A DNA stretch of 13,524 nt from Candidatus Hecatellales archaeon ex4484_218 (GTDB lineage Archaea > Thermoproteota > Bathyarchaeia > Hecatellales > Hecatellaceae): assembly GCA_002254975.1 (NCBI GenBank), contig NJEB01000009.1, forward strand, positions 1 to 13,524, in the 5' to 3' direction. Both the position numbers and the translations under genes were made by a program. The notes beneath the pieces are model-generated. The model saw only the letters and a list, made by a program, of their open reading frames with translations. It made no database searches and was not told where the DNA came from. Within the stretch, counting starts at the first letter, position 1; each line of letters starts with the position of its first letter. This document shows positions 3,935-10,094 of this stretch, one piece after another.

Positions 3935-4507
3935 ATGGGTCATCGTAGAAAACATGCTCCAAGAAGAGGTTCACTAGCCTTTAGACCTAGAGCACGTGCT
4001 AAAAGAATGGTTGCAAGAGTTAGATATTGGCCTGAGGTTGAGGAAACTAAACTTTTAGGTTTTGCTGGTTATAAGGCTGGTATGACTTATGCTTTTGTTG
4101 TTGAAGATAATAAGGCTTCACCAAACTATGGTAAAGAAGTTTTTTGTCCAATAACAGTTATAGATACACCTCCTCTCTGGATTTGTGCTGTTAGGGCTTA
4201 TGAACAAACACCTTACGGGTTAAGAACCTTTACCGAAGCTTGGGCTGAAAATTTACCTAAAGACCTTGATAGAGTTTTAACCTTACCTAAAAATATCTTA
4301 ACAACCGAAAACCTAAAAAAAATTGAGGAGAATCTGGATAAAATTGCTGATTTAAGAGTTATAGCATGTACAATACCTAGAGAAGCTGGAATTTCAAAGA
4401 AAAAACCTGATGTTTTAGAGATTCCTGTTGGTGGGAAAGATATTAAAGAGAAATTTGAGTATGTAAAAAGTATTTTAGGTAAAAGAGTTCATGTTTACCG
4501 TTCCTAG
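3935..4507 (+). CDS. rpl3: ribosomal protein uL3 (L3), N-terminal fragment; gene disrupted by an internal deletion with frameshift
   Basis: uL3 is an early 23S rRNA-binding protein of the large subunit, and its central extension reaches toward the peptidyl transferase centre. This piece has the archaeal N-terminus ([23 protein letters not shown]), then [10 protein letters not shown] and [11 protein letters not shown], and is collinear with archaeal L3 up to SILGKRVHV. After that the frame gives only YRS and stops at 4505-4507. The following DNA encodes the L3 C-terminus (VPRAGQ...) in the +1 frame. The intervening family segment (DVF..GE..DV..VTKGKG..G..KRWG...GPW.PSRV) is absent, about 55-60 residues by comparison with remembered archaeal L3 sequences. 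The remaining coding would give about 275 residues rather than the usual 330-350. The ATG at 3935 has GGAAG 9 bases upstream. uL3 is essential, so an assembly or sequencing deletion is as likely as true gene damage. Confidence 0.93.
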
Positions 4508-4751
4508 AGCAGGTCAACTTGGATTTTTCCAAAGAACAGAATACAATAAAAGAATAATCAAAATTGGTTTTGATGGTAAAGAAATAACACCTAAAGGTGG
4601 TTTTCATAGGTATGGAGTAATTAAAGGACCATATATTCTGCTTAAGGGTAGTGTTCCAGGACCACCTAAACGTTTAATTAGGTTAAGACATGCTGTTAGA
4701 GGACCTGAAGAAATTCAGAAACCACAAGTTACCTATGTTCATGTTGGGTGA
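4491..4751 (+). CDS. rpl3: ribosomal protein uL3 (L3), C-terminal fragment in a different frame
   Basis: This frame encodes the conserved L3 C-terminal region: [21 protein letters not shown], then [37 protein letters not shown] and a final segment ending YVHVG. It overlaps the N-terminal fragment by 17 bases but in the +1 frame. The formal ATG at 4491 is most likely the internal Met of the family's V-M-F/W-TVPRAG region rather than a true translation start, and no ribosome binding site precedes it. It should be read as the second half of one damaged gene and not as a separate protein. Its stop overlaps the possible GTG start of uL4 (GTGA, 4748-4751), the tight linkage expected for L3-L4. Confidence 0.92.
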
Positions 4752-5908: not shown

Positions 5909-5926
5909 TTTAGAGGTAAGTTTTAG

Positions 5927-6406
5927 GTGAAAAGTAGATTTAAAACATGTATGTCCTGGAGGGAAAAACTGGAAAAACAACAAGAACCTAGGATTGTTAA
6001 TATTCCACCAAAAATGGTAAAAAGATTGGGAAAAGGGAAAATGCTTATCCCTAAACCTTTAGATGTTGATGCGTTAATTCGAAAGGTTGAAAAAGGTAAA
6101 CTTGTAACCCAAAACCAGATTAGGGAAAAATTAGCTAAAGATTACAATGTAAACTGCACATGTCCAGTAACAACAGGAATATTTATCCGTATTGTTGCTG
6201 AAGCTGCTGAGGAAGATTTAAGAAAAGGAAAAAAACAAGTAACCCCTTATTGGCGTGTGGTTGGCTTGGATGGAAGTTTAAACCCTAAATTTCCAGGTGG
6301 AGTTAAAAAACAAGCTAAAAACTTGGAAAAAGAGGGGCATGTTATTGTTTGGGATAAAAAAGTGCCTAAGGTAAAAGATTTCGAAAAATTTTTAGTTAAG
6401 TTTTGA
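5927..6406 (+). CDS. MGMT-family (alkyltransferase-like) protein lacking the catalytic cysteine
   Basis: The middle and C-terminal parts resemble the DNA-binding domain of O6-methylguanine-DNA methyltransferase. KGKLVTQNQIREKL...TTGIFIRIVAEAA occupies the position of the helix-turn-helix, and PYWRVVGLDGSLNPKFPGG...EKEGHVI matches the PCHRVV..DGsL..y.GG...LL..EG block. The alkyl-accepting Cys of PCHR is replaced by Tyr (P107-Y108-W109-R110), so it cannot act as a classical suicide methyltransferase. By analogy with ATL proteins it may recognise modified DNA, but this is inference. GTG 5927 has GAGGT (5913-5917) 9 bases upstream; ATG 5951 (MSWREKLE) matches the likely conserved start but lacks a ribosome binding site, so the first eight residues are uncertain. 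It lies 18 bp after uL23 and is probably cotranscribed. Confidence 0.75.
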   Translation: MKSRFKTCMSWREKLEKQQEPRIVNIPPKMVKRLGKGKMLIPKPLDVDALIRKVEKGKLVTQNQIREKLAKDYNVNCTCPVTTGIFIRIVAEAAEEDLRKGKKQVTPYWRVVGLDGSLNPKFPGGVKKQAKNLEKEGHVIVWDKKVPKVKDFEKFLVKF

Positions 6407-6413
6407 TTGTTTT

Positions 6414-6436
6414 AGGTTTTAACTTCGAAACCTTTT
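6414..6436 (+). terminator. weak terminator-like hairpin with T run
   Basis: AGGTTT (6414-6419) and AAACCT (6428-6433) form a 6-bp stem with an 8-base loop, followed directly by TTTTAG. It sits just after the MGMT-like gene. The stem is short, and archaeal termination depends mainly on T-rich stretches, so it may only reduce read-through into the membrane protein gene. No convincing TATA box follows it. Confidence 0.3.
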
Positions 6437-6472
6437 AGAGGAAGGTGTTTTTCTTTAAAACTTGAAGAAGAC

Positions 6473-7306
6473 TTGTTTAACCCTAAGATTCTTTTAACAT
6501 CTATATTTTTCTTGGTTATTTTAGCTCAAACTATGACTTTATCTTTTTCAGACCAGCCAATGATAATCCATCCACCAACTATTAGCATGGATTCTTCAAG
6601 TATGGTAAATATTAGGTATGCAGGTGAGAAGGATGTTTATGTTGTTTTACCTCAACTTCCAAAAAATTTTACAGTTGAATCTGCTAAAGTTGTTGGTGAA
6701 AAAGTTGGAGGATTAATCATAATTTCTGCTGAAAACATGAAAAAAGCAGGAATTTTTGATTGTAGTTTAGCGTTTTTTTCAACAGCCCCCTACAACCTAA
6801 ATGTTTCCCTGTTAAAGGGAAATGATGTTAAACCTATCAGCCAATATATTTGTCCAGCAAACATAACAGTTCAGTTAAACCTTGTTTTAGCTTTAAACCT
6901 TAAAGAACCAGTACCTGAAGGTCAAATATTTATCCAACAATTTTTCATGAATACTTTTTCAAGGTTTGCTTCAGGATGGGAGTTTGCTGTGTATCTTATT
7001 TTTATCCCACTTTTTATGGTTACTGGATTTTTAAATTTACATGATATGAAAAGAAAAAAGGAAAAATGGACTAAACAAGATTCGGTAGCCCTAATTTTAA
7101 GACATGTTTTTTATGCTTTTCTTTTCTGTTTTATCATTGTTTCAATTGTAAGTTTAGGATTGCTTGTTTACAGTTATATTTTTAAAGTATCCCTCTTTTC
7201 TTTTGGAGTTTTTATTTTTTCAGCTTTACTTTTCGCTTTAATAGGTTTAATTTATTGGCTTGCTAAATGGAGGAATTGGTATGACCTTATCGATGAGGAA
7301 GATTAG
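6473..7306 (+). CDS. uncharacterised membrane protein with signal peptide and three C-terminal helices; possible partner of the downstream Lon-type protease
   Basis: I do not recognise the family. The layout is clear: a signal peptide (about residues 4-25, LLTSIFFLVILAQTMTLSFS), an extracytoplasmic, probably beta-rich domain (about 27-165) with two cysteines (C97, C127) that could pair, and three hydrophobic helices (about 169-188, 212-236, 241-263). The loop after helix 1 is strongly basic (MKRKKEKW), placing it in the cytoplasm; the short tail KWRNWYDLIDEED would also be cytoplasmic. TTG 6473 is the only start in this frame after the upstream stop, and it begins immediately before the signal peptide. 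The ribosome binding site is poor (GAAGAAG, 6464-6470). The gene overlaps the following AAA/Lon gene by 26 bases, which implies translational coupling and suggests joint function. I infer that it could anchor the soluble protease at the membrane. Confidence 0.8.
   Translation: MFNPKILLTSIFFLVILAQTMTLSFSDQPMIIHPPTISMDSSSMVNIRYAGEKDVYVVLPQLPKNFTVESAKVVGEKVGGLIIISAENMKKAGIFDCSLAFFSTAPYNLNVSLLKGNDVKPISQYICPANITVQLNLVLALNLKEPVPEGQIFIQQFFMNTFSRFASGWEFAVYLIFIPLFMVTGFLNLHDMKRKKEKWTKQDSVALILRHVFYAFLFCFIIVSIVSLGLLVYSYIFKVSLFSFGVFIFSALLFALIGLIYWLAKWRNWYDLIDEED
7269..7273 (+). promoter_or_regulatory. ribosome binding site that fixes the AAA/Lon start at ATG 7281
   Basis: GGAGG lies inside the end of the membrane protein gene, 7 bases before ATG 7281. 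An in-frame TTG at 7260 has no such site. This makes ATG 7281 the likely start and couples the two overlapping genes. Confidence 0.75.
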
Positions 7307-10022
7307 TGGAGAGGCAGACTCTAAACCATGGTGGCTTAAACATCCAAACCTACGTAAAATACTTTTTCTCCCCCTATACTTAACAACAAGAGATTATCGA
7401 CGTTGGAGAAATGCTCAACTAACCCCAAAAAAACTTAGAAGAAACCTTCGTGAGCTGGATAAAAAATTTCCCTTTAAACGTGAAAATCTTATTGGAAGAG
7501 ACCAAGAATATCAGTTACTTATGACAAGTTTTAGTTACCATGTTATTCAAGACTCGCAGGTTAGGGAGATTTTTAAGGCTGCTCCACCACCAAAATTTTT
7601 TATTCTTAAAGGTGCAACTGGAACAGGGAAATCTTTGTTAGCTGAAGTATGCATTAGAGATGCAATAAGTTATGGGGTAAGTAAAGGTGTTAACATTCAA
7701 CCTATCATAGTTAAAGGTGAAGATGTTTTTGACCCATTTTATGGGCAGTCAATAAAAAATCTTGCAAATATTTTTAAACGTGCTAAAGAAGCTCCAAGTA
7801 TCATCTTTTTTGATGAATTTCAAACTTTTGGTATGAAGGTTGGAAAAGCATCTCAAGGTGTTGACCGTGAAGATATTAGAGTTCAAGATACCTTTGTTGA
7901 TTATATTAACAAAATTTTAAACACTCAGCAAAGAACGGTTGTTATTGTTGCAACTAACATTGTTGAAAGTATTAGGGAGGATATTCGGAGAAGAGGCTAC
8001 TTCATAGATTTAGACCAAAATATAACAAGAGACATGCTTTTAGCTGTTTTAGCTGCTGAACTTGAAAAAAATGGTTGGACTCATCTAAAACCTGAAGAAG
8101 TTATGGATATTCTGGAAAAAACTGTTAGTGCTTTCCGTCAAACTCAACTAACACCCTTTGACATTATAGATGCATGTCAAAAAATTAGAAACCGTAAAAT
8201 TGAACCTATACGAGCAAACCTTTTCAAAAAAATTAAAGATAAAATTTATTCCTCAGAAGTAAAATATACGGTTACCCTTGAAGATTTTAAGATTGCAGCC
8301 AGAGAATTAAGAGGTTATGTTGAACAGGAGAAAAGCAGTGAAGTTATGAGTGCAATTTTAAAAATTAAACCTTCAACAACCTACAATGATGTTGGTGGAC
8401 TTTTTGGGATTAAAGAAAAAATTTTCAAAACAATTTCTTTAAGCCTAAGAACAGATTTAGCAAGCAAACTTAACTGGGTTCCACCTAAGGGATTTTTACT
8501 TTGGGGTGAACCAGGATGTGGGAAAACTCATTTATCTAAGGCTATTGCTAGAGAAAATAATGCAACCTTCTTTTATGCTCCAGCAGCCCATTTGCTGATG
8601 AATGCTAAATGGGTTGGTGAACCTGAAAAAAATGTTCGAGACCTTTTTGCTTTAGCAAGAAAACATGCTCCAAGTATTATTTTCTTTGATGAATTTGATG
8701 TTTTATCCAGTAAACGTAGAGGAGACCCTGTTGGAGATAAGATTACCGCCCAAATATTAACTGAGTTGGATGGTTTACAACCTCTTGAAAATGTTATTGT
8801 TATTGCTGCAACCAACAAACTTGAAGCTATTGATGAAGCCATACTTAACAGGTTTGAACCTTACATCATAGAAATTCCCTTACCAAGAAATGATGCTGAA
8901 AGAATGGATATTATCAGGGTTCATCTAAGAGAATATATAGGTCATCTTCACCCAGAAGTTTCAGTTGAAAAAGTTTTAAGTATTATTAAACGTTTTCGTG
9001 TTGTTTCACCACGAGTTGTTGCTGAAATTATTAGGGAAGCAAACAGGTTAAGGTCTCAAGAAGTAATTGCATGTATGGAGCTTTGTAAAGCTGAGGAGGC
9101 AAAAGATGAAGCACGTAAAAAACATGTTATGGAAGTTTTTAGAAAAGACTTAGAACGATTGTATGAAGTTTTGGGAACAAATAAGATTCAACAATTAAAA
9201 AATGTTAATAGTGAAACCTATAAAATACGTTTATACCATTTTGAAAAAGCAGCTGAACAACTTGAACCTGAAATAGATAAAGAATTGATGGATGTTCAGG
9301 AAAGTGTGTTACATGAGATTCCTGATACAGGTGTGGTTGTAGGTTTAGCAACAGACCAACAAGGTAGACGTGGAATGATTTTAATTGTTGAATGTGCAAT
9401 TAACAGTAGGGGAACCGGAAAAATAACCTTAACTGGTGCTGCAAAAACAGCTGTTTTAGGTCATGCAACAACAGTTGAAGATTTAAGTGTTCTTGAAAGT
9501 GCAACAAATGTTATTGAATATATTCGTAGCTACATTTATGATAAAATTGGTTTGGATATTTCAAATTATGATTTTAAGTTTCAAGTAATTAGTCCACTTG
9601 AAGGTGTTGCTGGGATGGGTGTTACAGGTCCAAGTTTAGGTGTTGCTTTTAGTGTTGCAGCTATTTCTGAACTTGCTGGTGTTAAGGTTGAACCAAACAT
9701 TGTAATGACTGGAAAAGGAGATATTAAAGGGAATGTTGGACCAATTGGTGGGGTTGGATGGAGGGGGGCTGGAAAAATTCAAGCAGCCATAAAAACAAGA
9801 AAAATAAAAATTAGGAAGTTTATCTTACCTAAATGGAATTATGAAAAATCAACAGATGAACTTAAAACTTTGATGGAGCAAAATATTGAGGTTATTCCTG
9901 TTCAACGTCAAGTTGAAGCTTGGATTCATGCATTAAATCTAAGTGAGGAGGAAATTGTTAGAAGATTAGCTGTTAATCTTAGTGGTTTTGAACCTAAACC
10001 TACCTTTAAGTTTAACCTTTAA
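7281..10022 (+). CDS. tandem AAA+ ATPase with C-terminal Lon (S16) protease domain, 913 aa
   Basis: A predicted ATP-dependent protease. AAA+ module 1 has Walker A GATGTGKS (111-118) and Walker B IIFFDE (174-179). Module 2 resembles Cdc48/PAN: YNDVGG entry, Walker A GEPGCGKT (409-416), pore-loop motif KWVG (443-446), Walker B IIFFDE (ending D470-E471), VIAATN sensor and an ILNRFE arginine segment. A linker with coiled-coil tendency (about 600-675) leads into the Lon proteolytic domain (about 678-905). The catalytic Ser785 is in GPSLG and the likely catalytic Lys832 in GGVGWRGAGKIQAA. They are 47 residues apart, where Lon proteases have 43; a four-residue insertion before the Lys accounts for the difference. 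Typical LonA/LonB carry one AAA+ module, so two is unusual. There is no transmembrane insert such as archaeal LonB has, whereas the overlapping upstream gene encodes a membrane protein. Both ATPase sites and the protease dyad look intact. Confidence 0.9.
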   Translation: MTLSMRKISGEADSKPWWLKHPNLRKILFLPLYLTTRDYRRWRNAQLTPKKLRRNLRELDKKFPFKRENLIGRDQEYQLLMTSFSYHVIQDSQVREIFKAAPPPKFFILKGATGTGKSLLAEVCIRDAISYGVSKGVNIQPIIVKGEDVFDPFYGQSIKNLANIFKRAKEAPSIIFFDEFQTFGMKVGKASQGVDREDIRVQDTFVDYINKILNTQQRTVVIVATNIVESIREDIRRRGYFIDLDQNITRDMLLAVLAAELEKNGWTHLKPEEVMDILEKTVSAFRQTQLTPFDIIDACQKIRNRKIEPIRANLFKKIKDKIYSSEVKYTVTLEDFKIAARELRGYVEQEKSSEVMSAILKIKPSTTYNDVGGLFGIKEKIFKTISLSLRTDLASKLNWVPPKGFLLWGEPGCGKTHLSKAIARENNATFFYAPAAHLLMNAKWVGEPEKNVRDLFALARKHAPSIIFFDEFDVLSSKRRGDPVGDKITAQILTELDGLQPLENVIVIAATNKLEAIDEAILNRFEPYIIEIPLPRNDAERMDIIRVHLREYIGHLHPEVSVEKVLSIIKRFRVVSPRVVAEIIREANRLRSQEVIACMELCKAEEAKDEARKKHVMEVFRKDLERLYEVLGTNKIQQLKNVNSETYKIRLYHFEKAAEQLEPEIDKELMDVQESVLHEIPDTGVVVGLATDQQGRRGMILIVECAINSRGTGKITLTGAAKTAVLGHATTVEDLSVLESATNVIEYIRSYIYDKIGLDISNYDFKFQVISPLEGVAGMGVTGPSLGVAFSVAAISELAGVKVEPNIVMTGKGDIKGNVGPIGGVGWRGAGKIQAAIKTRKIKIRKFILPKWNYEKSTDELKTLMEQNIEVIPVQRQVEAWIHALNLSEEEIVRRLAVNLSGFEPKPTFKFNL

Positions 10023-10045
10023 AATTTTTAAGGTTAAGTTTTTAT
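10012..10045 (+). terminator. near-perfect inverted repeat plus T run at the end of the AAA/Lon gene, abutting the uL2 promoter
   Basis: TTAACCTT (10012-10019) and AAGGTTAA (10030-10037) are exact reverse complements. The AT core between them is also symmetric apart from one mismatched pair. It spans the stop codon (10020-10022) and is followed by GTTTTTAT. As RNA it would form an 8-bp stem with a 10-base loop and then a T run, consistent with a terminator. As DNA, its right arm lies directly beside the uL2 TATA box, so an operator is the alternative reading. Confidence 0.45.
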
Positions 10046-10048
10046 AAG
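10039..10048 (+). promoter_or_regulatory. TATA box of the uL2-uS19 transcript
   Basis: TTTTTATAAG is a strong archaeal TATA box in the 72-bp gap before uL2. A transcription start near 10070-10075 would leave a leader of about 20-25 bases, containing GGTG (10080-10083) ahead of ATG 10095. It shows that uL2-uS19 need not depend on read-through from the uL3 promoter. Confidence 0.7.
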
Positions 10049-10094
10049 TCTACATGCAACAATTAATCTACAATTTTTTGGTGTTTGATGGGTA

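Follow-up and report, generated by a model that had tools for sequence, protein, structure and literature searches.

Gene and domain organization at the locus

The window, a 13,524-nucleotide (nt) stretch of contig NJEB01000009.1 from Candidatus Hecatellales archaeon ex4484_218, carries on its forward strand a gene for a protein with two AAA+ modules and a Lon protease domain (7281..10022), preceded by a gene for a putative membrane subunit that we call TM277 (6473..7306). The open reading frame (ORF) of the tandem protease starts with the ATG at 7281, is open throughout and ends with the TAA at 10020-10022, encoding 913 amino acids (aa). A GGAGG motif at 7269-7273, 7 nt ahead of the ATG, lies within the 3′ end of the TM277 gene, whose last 26 nt are shared with the start of the protease gene.

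Searches against Pfam assigned AAA (PF00004) to two stretches of the protein (181.3 bits, cut-off 21.2) and Lon_C (PF05362) to residues 679-883 (57.7 bits, cut-off 21.1). The N-terminal segment (residues 15-65; 7323..7475) opens with a conserved WW motif. The first module, AAA1 (residues ~66-330; 7476..8270), contains the Walker A motif GATGTGKS, the pore loop FDPFYGQS and the Walker B motif IIFFDE, and its residues R232 and R236-R238 are invariant. The second, Cdc48-D2-like module, AAA2 (residues ~355-600; 8343..9080), shows the Walker A motif GEPGCGKT, a KWVG pore loop within the stretch NAKWVGEPEK, again IIFFDE as Walker B, and R524. The Lon/S16 protease domain (9315..9929) holds the predicted catalytic Ser785 in a GPS motif (codon 9633..9635) and the predicted catalytic Lys832 (codon 9774..9776). 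An earlier sequence-only reading of this DNA had described the KWVG loop of the second module and an S16 domain with S785, both of which proved correct, and the Pfam search confirmed that the first module, too, is AAA+.

By sequence, the nearest solved structures of the AAA part are VCP-like ATPases. For the C-terminus it is 1z0b (E 4.9e-14), named 'putative protease La homolog type', which we take to be an archaeal Lon proteolytic domain. No NCBIfam model scored above its cut-off: TIGR01243 (CDC48) gave 213.9 bits against 802.65, TIGR00764 (LonB) 70.6 against 516.6, and TIGR00763 67.3 against 608.05. The TIGR00764 cut-off was reached by none of 398 sampled genomes of the phylum, which makes it an unfair test for LonB in this phylum. 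The LON substrate domain was not among the best 25/35 Pfam families at E 1, nor among the 15 at E 0.01, and hydropathy revealed no transmembrane (TM) segment in the 913-aa protein. This protease carries the sole Lon_C domain detected in the host genome, which is 61% complete.

TM277 (277 aa) is predicted to consist of a signal peptide or TM segment, a beta ectodomain (residues ~27-148), three TM helices and the acidic tail WYDLIDEED. Its predicted model (predicted local distance difference test 82.5, predicted template-modelling score 0.55) starts with a helix, followed by ten strands, a helix of low confidence and, at the C-terminus, three TM helices. The loop behind the first of these three is positive and, like the acidic tail, would fit a cytosolic C-terminus lying beside the N-terminus of the protease.

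The tandem protease belongs to a conserved family with two groups

A search of 5.8 billion proteins gave at least 3430 matches at E 1e-30 among 7999 scored candidates, of which the best 120 were listed. These fall into group 1 (P0001-P0076, some partial), which includes the window protein and is 58-70% identical to it, and group 2 (P0077-P0120), 36-39% identical. Where a listed relative comes with a source name, the name never mentions Lon; those given read 'AAA family ATPase', 'SpoVK/Ycf46/Vps4 family', 'transitional endoplasmic reticulum ATPase', 'hypothetical' or 'ATP-binding protein'. One group-1 relative, P0057 (64% identity), bears a bacterial label, Methylomirabilota, which may reflect mis-binning or transfer.

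Motifs were counted in 110 of the 120 listed proteins (>850 and <1030 aa; 66 of group 1, window protein included, and 44 of group 2), ten proteins of 596-850 aa being excluded. The Walker A lysine is present in 110/110 AAA1 modules and in 109/110 AAA2 modules (one R), and the DE pair of Walker B in all 110 proteins in both modules. Together with the Pfam result, this bears out the early view that both AAA+ modules have intact Walker A and B motifs. The pore-loop aromatics are equally constant (Y154 in 110/110; W, Y or F at position 444 in 110/110), while the sensor Asn of AAA1 is substituted in 5/66 group-1 rows. Ser785 and Lys832 are kept in 109/109 rows with a residue at these positions. In an alignment (A3) of the window protein and 47 relatives picked from the 120, the AAA and Lon_C families were both matched in 48/48; the CDC48 N-domain family was not among the Pfam families listed for the window protein or for A3. 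Among the 110 relatives, neither an HExxH motif nor an HbYX-like tail was found (0/110 each).

The sequence-only reading had proposed a search of archaeal genomes for this layout. In a sample of 398 genomes evenly drawn from the phylum, the tandem protease was found at E 1e-100 in 43 (18 with group 1, 25 with group 2). Outside the phylum, it occurred in 2/148 genomes in the phylum sample of an Odinarchaeia genome (G420), one being G420 itself, and in 0/100 in that of a Methanomicrobiales metagenome-assembled genome (G422), a search run without positive control.

An adjacent membrane protein accompanies the protease

The upstream gene was taken to be the longest of the frames on the protease strand that have at least 100 aa and end close to the start of the protease. 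By this rule, a gene with predicted TM segments precedes the protease in 42/42 loci (31 distinct places; loci chosen from search matches, not at random). At two loci from the window's class (L003 and L004), the partner is only a three-TM version of 124-134 aa, without ectodomain. A profile of the group-1 partner (A1), built from 16 sequences, matched 18/398 genomes, exactly the 18 that contain group-1 proteases, with one match per genome, always adjacent and on the same strand, the match ends lying between 23 nt overlapping and 37 nt apart. Most of these 18 genomes contributed to A1, and the informative part is thus the absence of matches from the other 380. A wider protein search with A1 returned at least 5 proteins among 7999 scored candidates, which says little on spread. 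The membrane partner was absent from the sequence-only reading, and its finding moves the likely picture from a soluble to a membrane-tethered machine.

Furthermore, in eight group-1 proteins (P0048, P0053, P0059, P0065, P0066, P0067, P0069 and P0073), TM segments precede the WW motif in the same polypeptide. Six of the eight are labelled Asgard by their sources and the other two fall in the same clade. The membrane segment is fused in front of the N-terminal WW-motif segment, and the motif is found at residue 108-129 in the fused proteins vs 17 in the window protein. Seven of the eight extensions (105-126 residues) were compared by blastp with 18 upstream proteins. Their respective best E values lay between 1.3e-17 (39% identity) and 7.9e-8; against TM277 of the window, the top match had 38% identity and E 2e-17. 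The extensions align over the C-terminal three-TM part of the upstream proteins, including the acidic IDEE-like tail, and the loop charge and tail of TM277 agree with the geometry of the fusion. The fused frame is continuous in the DNA of locus L138 (1014 aa) and of L034, where the contig ends within it. A tree of the full-length proteins puts the fusions on one branch (97 in the Shimodaira-Hasegawa-like approximate likelihood ratio test) with bathyarchaeal proteins such as P0031; the branch also holds 16 rows without neighbour information. By its length, its N-terminus and the size of its contig, P0031 is the protein encoded at L003, whose neighbour is the 124-aa three-TM gene only. Judged from these sequences, the path looks like one from separate gene to fusion.

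For group 2, a partner profile (A4) was made from 10 sequences, two divergent ones being omitted. It matched 23/398 genomes; 22 of the matches were strong (E ≤7.0e-30), and all 22 lie beside the protease within the 25 group-2 genomes, 14 on the same strand and 8 divergent (all 8 in family f29). The match ends of partner and protease are 20-313 nt apart, except in G095 (841 nt), where the protease match begins only at residue 268. The remaining genome, G289, has a marginal 39-residue A4 match (E 7.9e-4) and no protease match. In two of the three group-2 genomes missed by A4 (G032 and G036; loci L006 and L005), a 285-aa membrane gene lies 66 nt upstream of the protease; in the third (G040), the protease is cut by the contig end. 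G251 carries the group-2 membrane gene twice, in tandem.

Taken with the domain content, these data make it likely that the window encodes a membrane-tethered double-ring AAA+ Lon (S16) protease with TM277 as its dedicated membrane subunit, FtsH-like in role. A soluble double-ring AAA+ Lon protease would agree with the 913-aa protein being devoid of TM segments; the adjacent gene would then encode a substrate or a separate regulator, or be a mere operon neighbour. The TM proteins also diverge far faster than the proteases (among the loci compared, 22-39% identity to TM277 vs 60-70% for the group-1 proteases), and the two genes are divergently transcribed in the eight f29 genomes. However, a mere neighbour is difficult to reconcile with the restriction of group-1 protease and partner to the same 18 genomes, always side by side, and with the in-frame fusion in eight proteins, confirmed in the DNA of L138. 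We therefore regard a soluble enzyme as unlikely.

Several observations nevertheless weigh against a tethered double-ring protease. The group-2 partners have mostly two, not three, C-terminal TM segments, and a single membrane family spanning both groups was not supported (hhalign probability 25). Since there is no convincing homology and the number of TM segments differs, the group-2 partnership rests on adjacency and rough topology. G387 has an additional group-2 membrane gene, which lies on a contig other than that of the protease. The P values for co-occurrence of protease and partner ignore shared ancestry. Hydropathy flagged part of the Lon domain in P0028, P0040 and 16/44 group-2 rows, which we take for buried core, not membrane (positions were listed for five of the 16 group-2 rows). 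The spacing of Ser785 and Lys832, 46 or 48 residues instead of 42, may mean that the geometry around Lys832 differs. Finally, the scarcity of other Lons beside the tandem protease is weak evidence because 344/398 genomes lack them anyway and the overlap gives P 0.13 (see below).

Phylogeny of the AAA modules and of the Lon domain

The AAA tree comprised 12 group-1 and 8 group-2 proteins, 16 archaeal Cdc48-like proteins (every third locus, L035-L101), E. coli FtsH and 14 proteins with a single AAA module (377-408 aa, the size of PAN/CdvC, without individual identification). The AAA2 modules of both groups form a single clade (100/99), which sits within a branch containing all sampled Cdc48 D2 domains (91/90, under the star level of the program). 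AAA1 is a very long, divergent branch that the tree does not place. Of the proposed Cdc48-like character of the AAA modules, the tree thus favours, at modest support, the part that concerns AAA2, and AAA1 is too divergent to be placed. A recent duplication of the AAA module was rejected because AAA1 and AAA2 are widely separated in the tree.

The Lon-domain tree contained 34 rows, including E. coli Lon, four bathyarchaeal LonBs and nine YcbZ-type Lons. The Lon domains of the tandem proteases form one clade (100/98), separate from these other Lons, in support of the earlier suggestion of a possible separate lineage. For both trees, the program issued a long-branch warning, and the long E. coli Lon branch meets the tandem-protease clade; because of this warning, the Lon domain, taken alone, may have an affinity to LonA.

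These trees also bear on whether the protein is an ordinary LonA, LonB or member of another described Lon subfamily that has duplicated its AAA+ domain. The Lon_C score above the Pfam cut-off is what such a protein would give, the Pro before the catalytic Ser is as in LonA (the A-type centre; accessible text of PMC9569914), and the meeting of the E. coli Lon branch with the clade would suit a LonA affinity of the domain. Against this stand the low scores with TIGR00764 and TIGR00763, the distance between AAA1 and AAA2 with AAA2 grouping beside Cdc48 D2, and the single Lon clade. This explanation is highly improbable.

Comparison with known proteases and unfoldases

In the accessible text of the 2022 classification (PMC9569914), which treats LonA, LonB, LonC and LonBA, all Lons have an ATPase domain including an AAA+ module before the protease domain. 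The early reading had stated that canonical LonA and LonB have one AAA+ module. In the literature accessible to us, we found no described Lon subfamily with the layout of the tandem protease. The tandem protease belongs to the Lon superfamily (S16) by its Lon_C domain with a Ser-Lys dyad; it has two AAA stretches, AAA2 being of the Cdc48 D2 type, in place of the single Lon-type AAA+ module of LonA, LonB and LonC. The residue preceding the catalytic Ser is Pro in 109/109 rows, not the Asp expected of LonB; two bathyarchaeal LonBs (L125, L126) likewise have Pro. According to the same text, exactly 42 residues lie between the catalytic Ser and Lys of LonA and LonB. We measured 42 in E. coli Lon, YcbZ and L130, vs 46 in 65/65 group-1 rows with residues (window protein included) and 48 in 44/44 group-2 rows. 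A gap of 46 was also found in 2/2 bathyarchaeal LonBs measured (L125 and L126), via an insertion elsewhere.

The unusual spacing, together with the grouping of AAA2 with Cdc48 D2, would be compatible with a membrane-tethered remodelling or extraction ATPase, a Cdc48-like segregase, whose Lon domain is mainly structural or cleaves few substrates. The retention of Ser785 and Lys832 in every row with residues, across groups that are ~38% identical, is hardly expected of a dead domain, and makes this possibility quite improbable.

Like the membrane-anchored archaeal LonB (MEROPS S16), the tandem protease is archaeal, combines an AAA+ motor with a C-terminal Ser-Lys S16 domain and has a probable membrane location. 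It differs by its two AAA+ modules and by its anchor, which is encoded by a gene of its own or fused to the N-terminus, whereas the LonB anchor sits inside the AAA+ module (PMC9569914, PMC9263693; accessible text). The double-ring unfoldases Cdc48/VCP/VAT share the two tandem AAA modules, and the archaeal Cdc48 D2 domains lie beside AAA2; unlike them, the tandem protease carries its own C-terminal protease, scores below the TIGR01243 cut-off and has neither a listed N-domain family nor an HbYX-like tail. This supports the description of a Cdc48-style double-ring unfoldase with a built-in protease, the stacked double ring being predicted from homology. FtsH is composed of an ectodomain, a TM part and a cytosolic motor-protease, with one AAA module and a zinc metalloprotease. 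The proposed role as a membrane-tethered AAA+ protease with ectodomain, TM part and cytosolic motor-protease resembles that of FtsH/m-AAA; the two AAA modules and the lack of HExxH set the tandem protease apart. As far as the accessible text of PMC4343526 goes, FtsH is absent from archaea. LonBA likewise has an active centre of the A type and, presumably, an N-terminal membrane segment, but has a single AAA+ module and is so far seen in firmicutes only (accessible text of PMC9569914). Among Lon architectures, the accessible part of PMC2605481 lists Sigma54_activat-AAA-S16 in Thermococcus, where two ATPase models fall on one protein, whether or not as a true second module. In the accessible open-access literature searched, including PMC9569914, PMC9263693, PMC4343526, PMC5070193 and PMC2605481 (subscription literature lay outside the search), no description of a tandem-AAA+ Lon family was found, and the protease is apparently uncharacterised.

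Other Lon proteases in the phylum

Other Lons were scanned with TIGR00764 at E 1e-25, scoring three candidates per genome. Full-size ones were present in 54/398 genomes, three of which (G032, G036 and G040) are among the 43 with the tandem protease; 5.8 would be expected (P 0.13, relatedness ignored). Six of the 43 have a TIGR00764 match at E 1e-20, namely these three and three in which the tandem protease itself is matched. LonB-type matches (E <1e-60, 28 genomes) show no overlap with the 43 (P 0.036, relatedness ignored). Mutual exclusion of the tandem protease and other Lons is suggestive only. Eight Lons of ~820 aa placed in the Lon tree all cluster with E. coli YcbZ.

Several Bathyarchaeia contain frames of ~300 aa that match only the Lon-domain part of TIGR00764 (G008:C4:62551-62982, G014:C2:74780-75208 and similar). 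At L178 (G036:C6:23000-27500), a Cdc48-like ORF of >1,000 aa has its first AAA module broken by ~340 aa, possibly an intein. PADLOC matches (IetA, TRIP13 and others) to the protease lie on the AAA modules and are nothing specific, and a defence-system reading was rejected.

Proposed mode of action

By analogy with AAA+ and Lon proteins in general, the tandem protease would assemble as a hexamer, thread its substrates through two rings of pore loops and cut them in a sealed chamber, with TM277 as its anchor. TM277 would bind the protease directly and keep it on the cytosolic side of the membrane, and substrates would be recognised at the membrane or via the ectodomain and TM bundle of TM277. 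The aromatic pore loops of AAA1 would grip the substrate, the Cdc48-D2-like AAA2 ring would pull it, and the Lon chamber would cleave it by means of Ser785 and Lys832. Such a machine might serve in membrane-protein quality control, taking in these archaea the role of FtsH in bacteria and of membrane-anchored LonB in other archaea.

We give an even chance to a broader proposal. In addition to the 20S proteasome and LonB, archaea would have a third type of ATP-dependent protease, whose double-ring motor descends from Cdc48 and acquired its Lon peptidase separately from the AAA-Lon fusions of LonA and LonB; with its dedicated membrane subunit, it would form an archaeal counterpart of FtsH. The forms of the subunit would mark the steps: a stand-alone gene that includes the ectodomain, a stand-alone three-TM gene and finally the Asgard fusion. 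If true, a third type reaching from Bathyarchaeia and Methanomethylicota to Odinarchaeia would alter the count of archaeal ATP-dependent proteases, point to a way in which archaea that lack LonB could break down membrane proteins, and provide an AAA+ machine with a Cdc48-type motor and a protease of its own. Thanks to the membrane partner and the Asgard fusion, the idea can be tested directly.

The module lies between uL23 and uL2

The genes for orf159, TM277 and the protease occupy a stretch between uL23 and uL2 (5909..10094, forward strand) that is missing there in G001, a genome of the same genus. The match ends of uL23 and uL2 are 74 nt apart in G001 and 14-27 nt apart in G002, G004, G005 and G006, vs 4.2 kb in the window; G003 showed no uL23 within the 1.5 kb viewed, and G007 is cut. 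Neither in G001 (90% complete) nor in the family members G002-G007 (62-98% complete) does the protease have more than partial matches, all of the AAA2 type. The window protease is a lone branch beside a clade with Nezhaarchaeota and Methanomethylicota proteins (support 81). Horizontal gain of the module is likely; loss in the sister genomes combined with relocation is a possible alternative. No foreign base composition was seen: both the protease gene and the TM277 gene fall within the range of their neighbours in GC content, overall and at third positions. Mis-binning of the contig was judged unlikely from the identities of the window uL2, which are 83% with G001, 67-69% with G002-G006 and, over 90 residues, 79% with G007.

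The first gene of this stretch, orf159 (5927-6406), had no tblastn relative in the other loci compared; it weakly resembles the O6-methylguanine methyltransferase DNA-binding domain (PF01035, E 3.5e-5, below cut-off). Elsewhere in the window, uL3 (3935-4751) is split into two overlapping ORFs that match positions 1-208 and 265-347 of the Ribosomal_L3 profile, and the ~56 unmatched profile positions point to an assembly error or a damaged gene.

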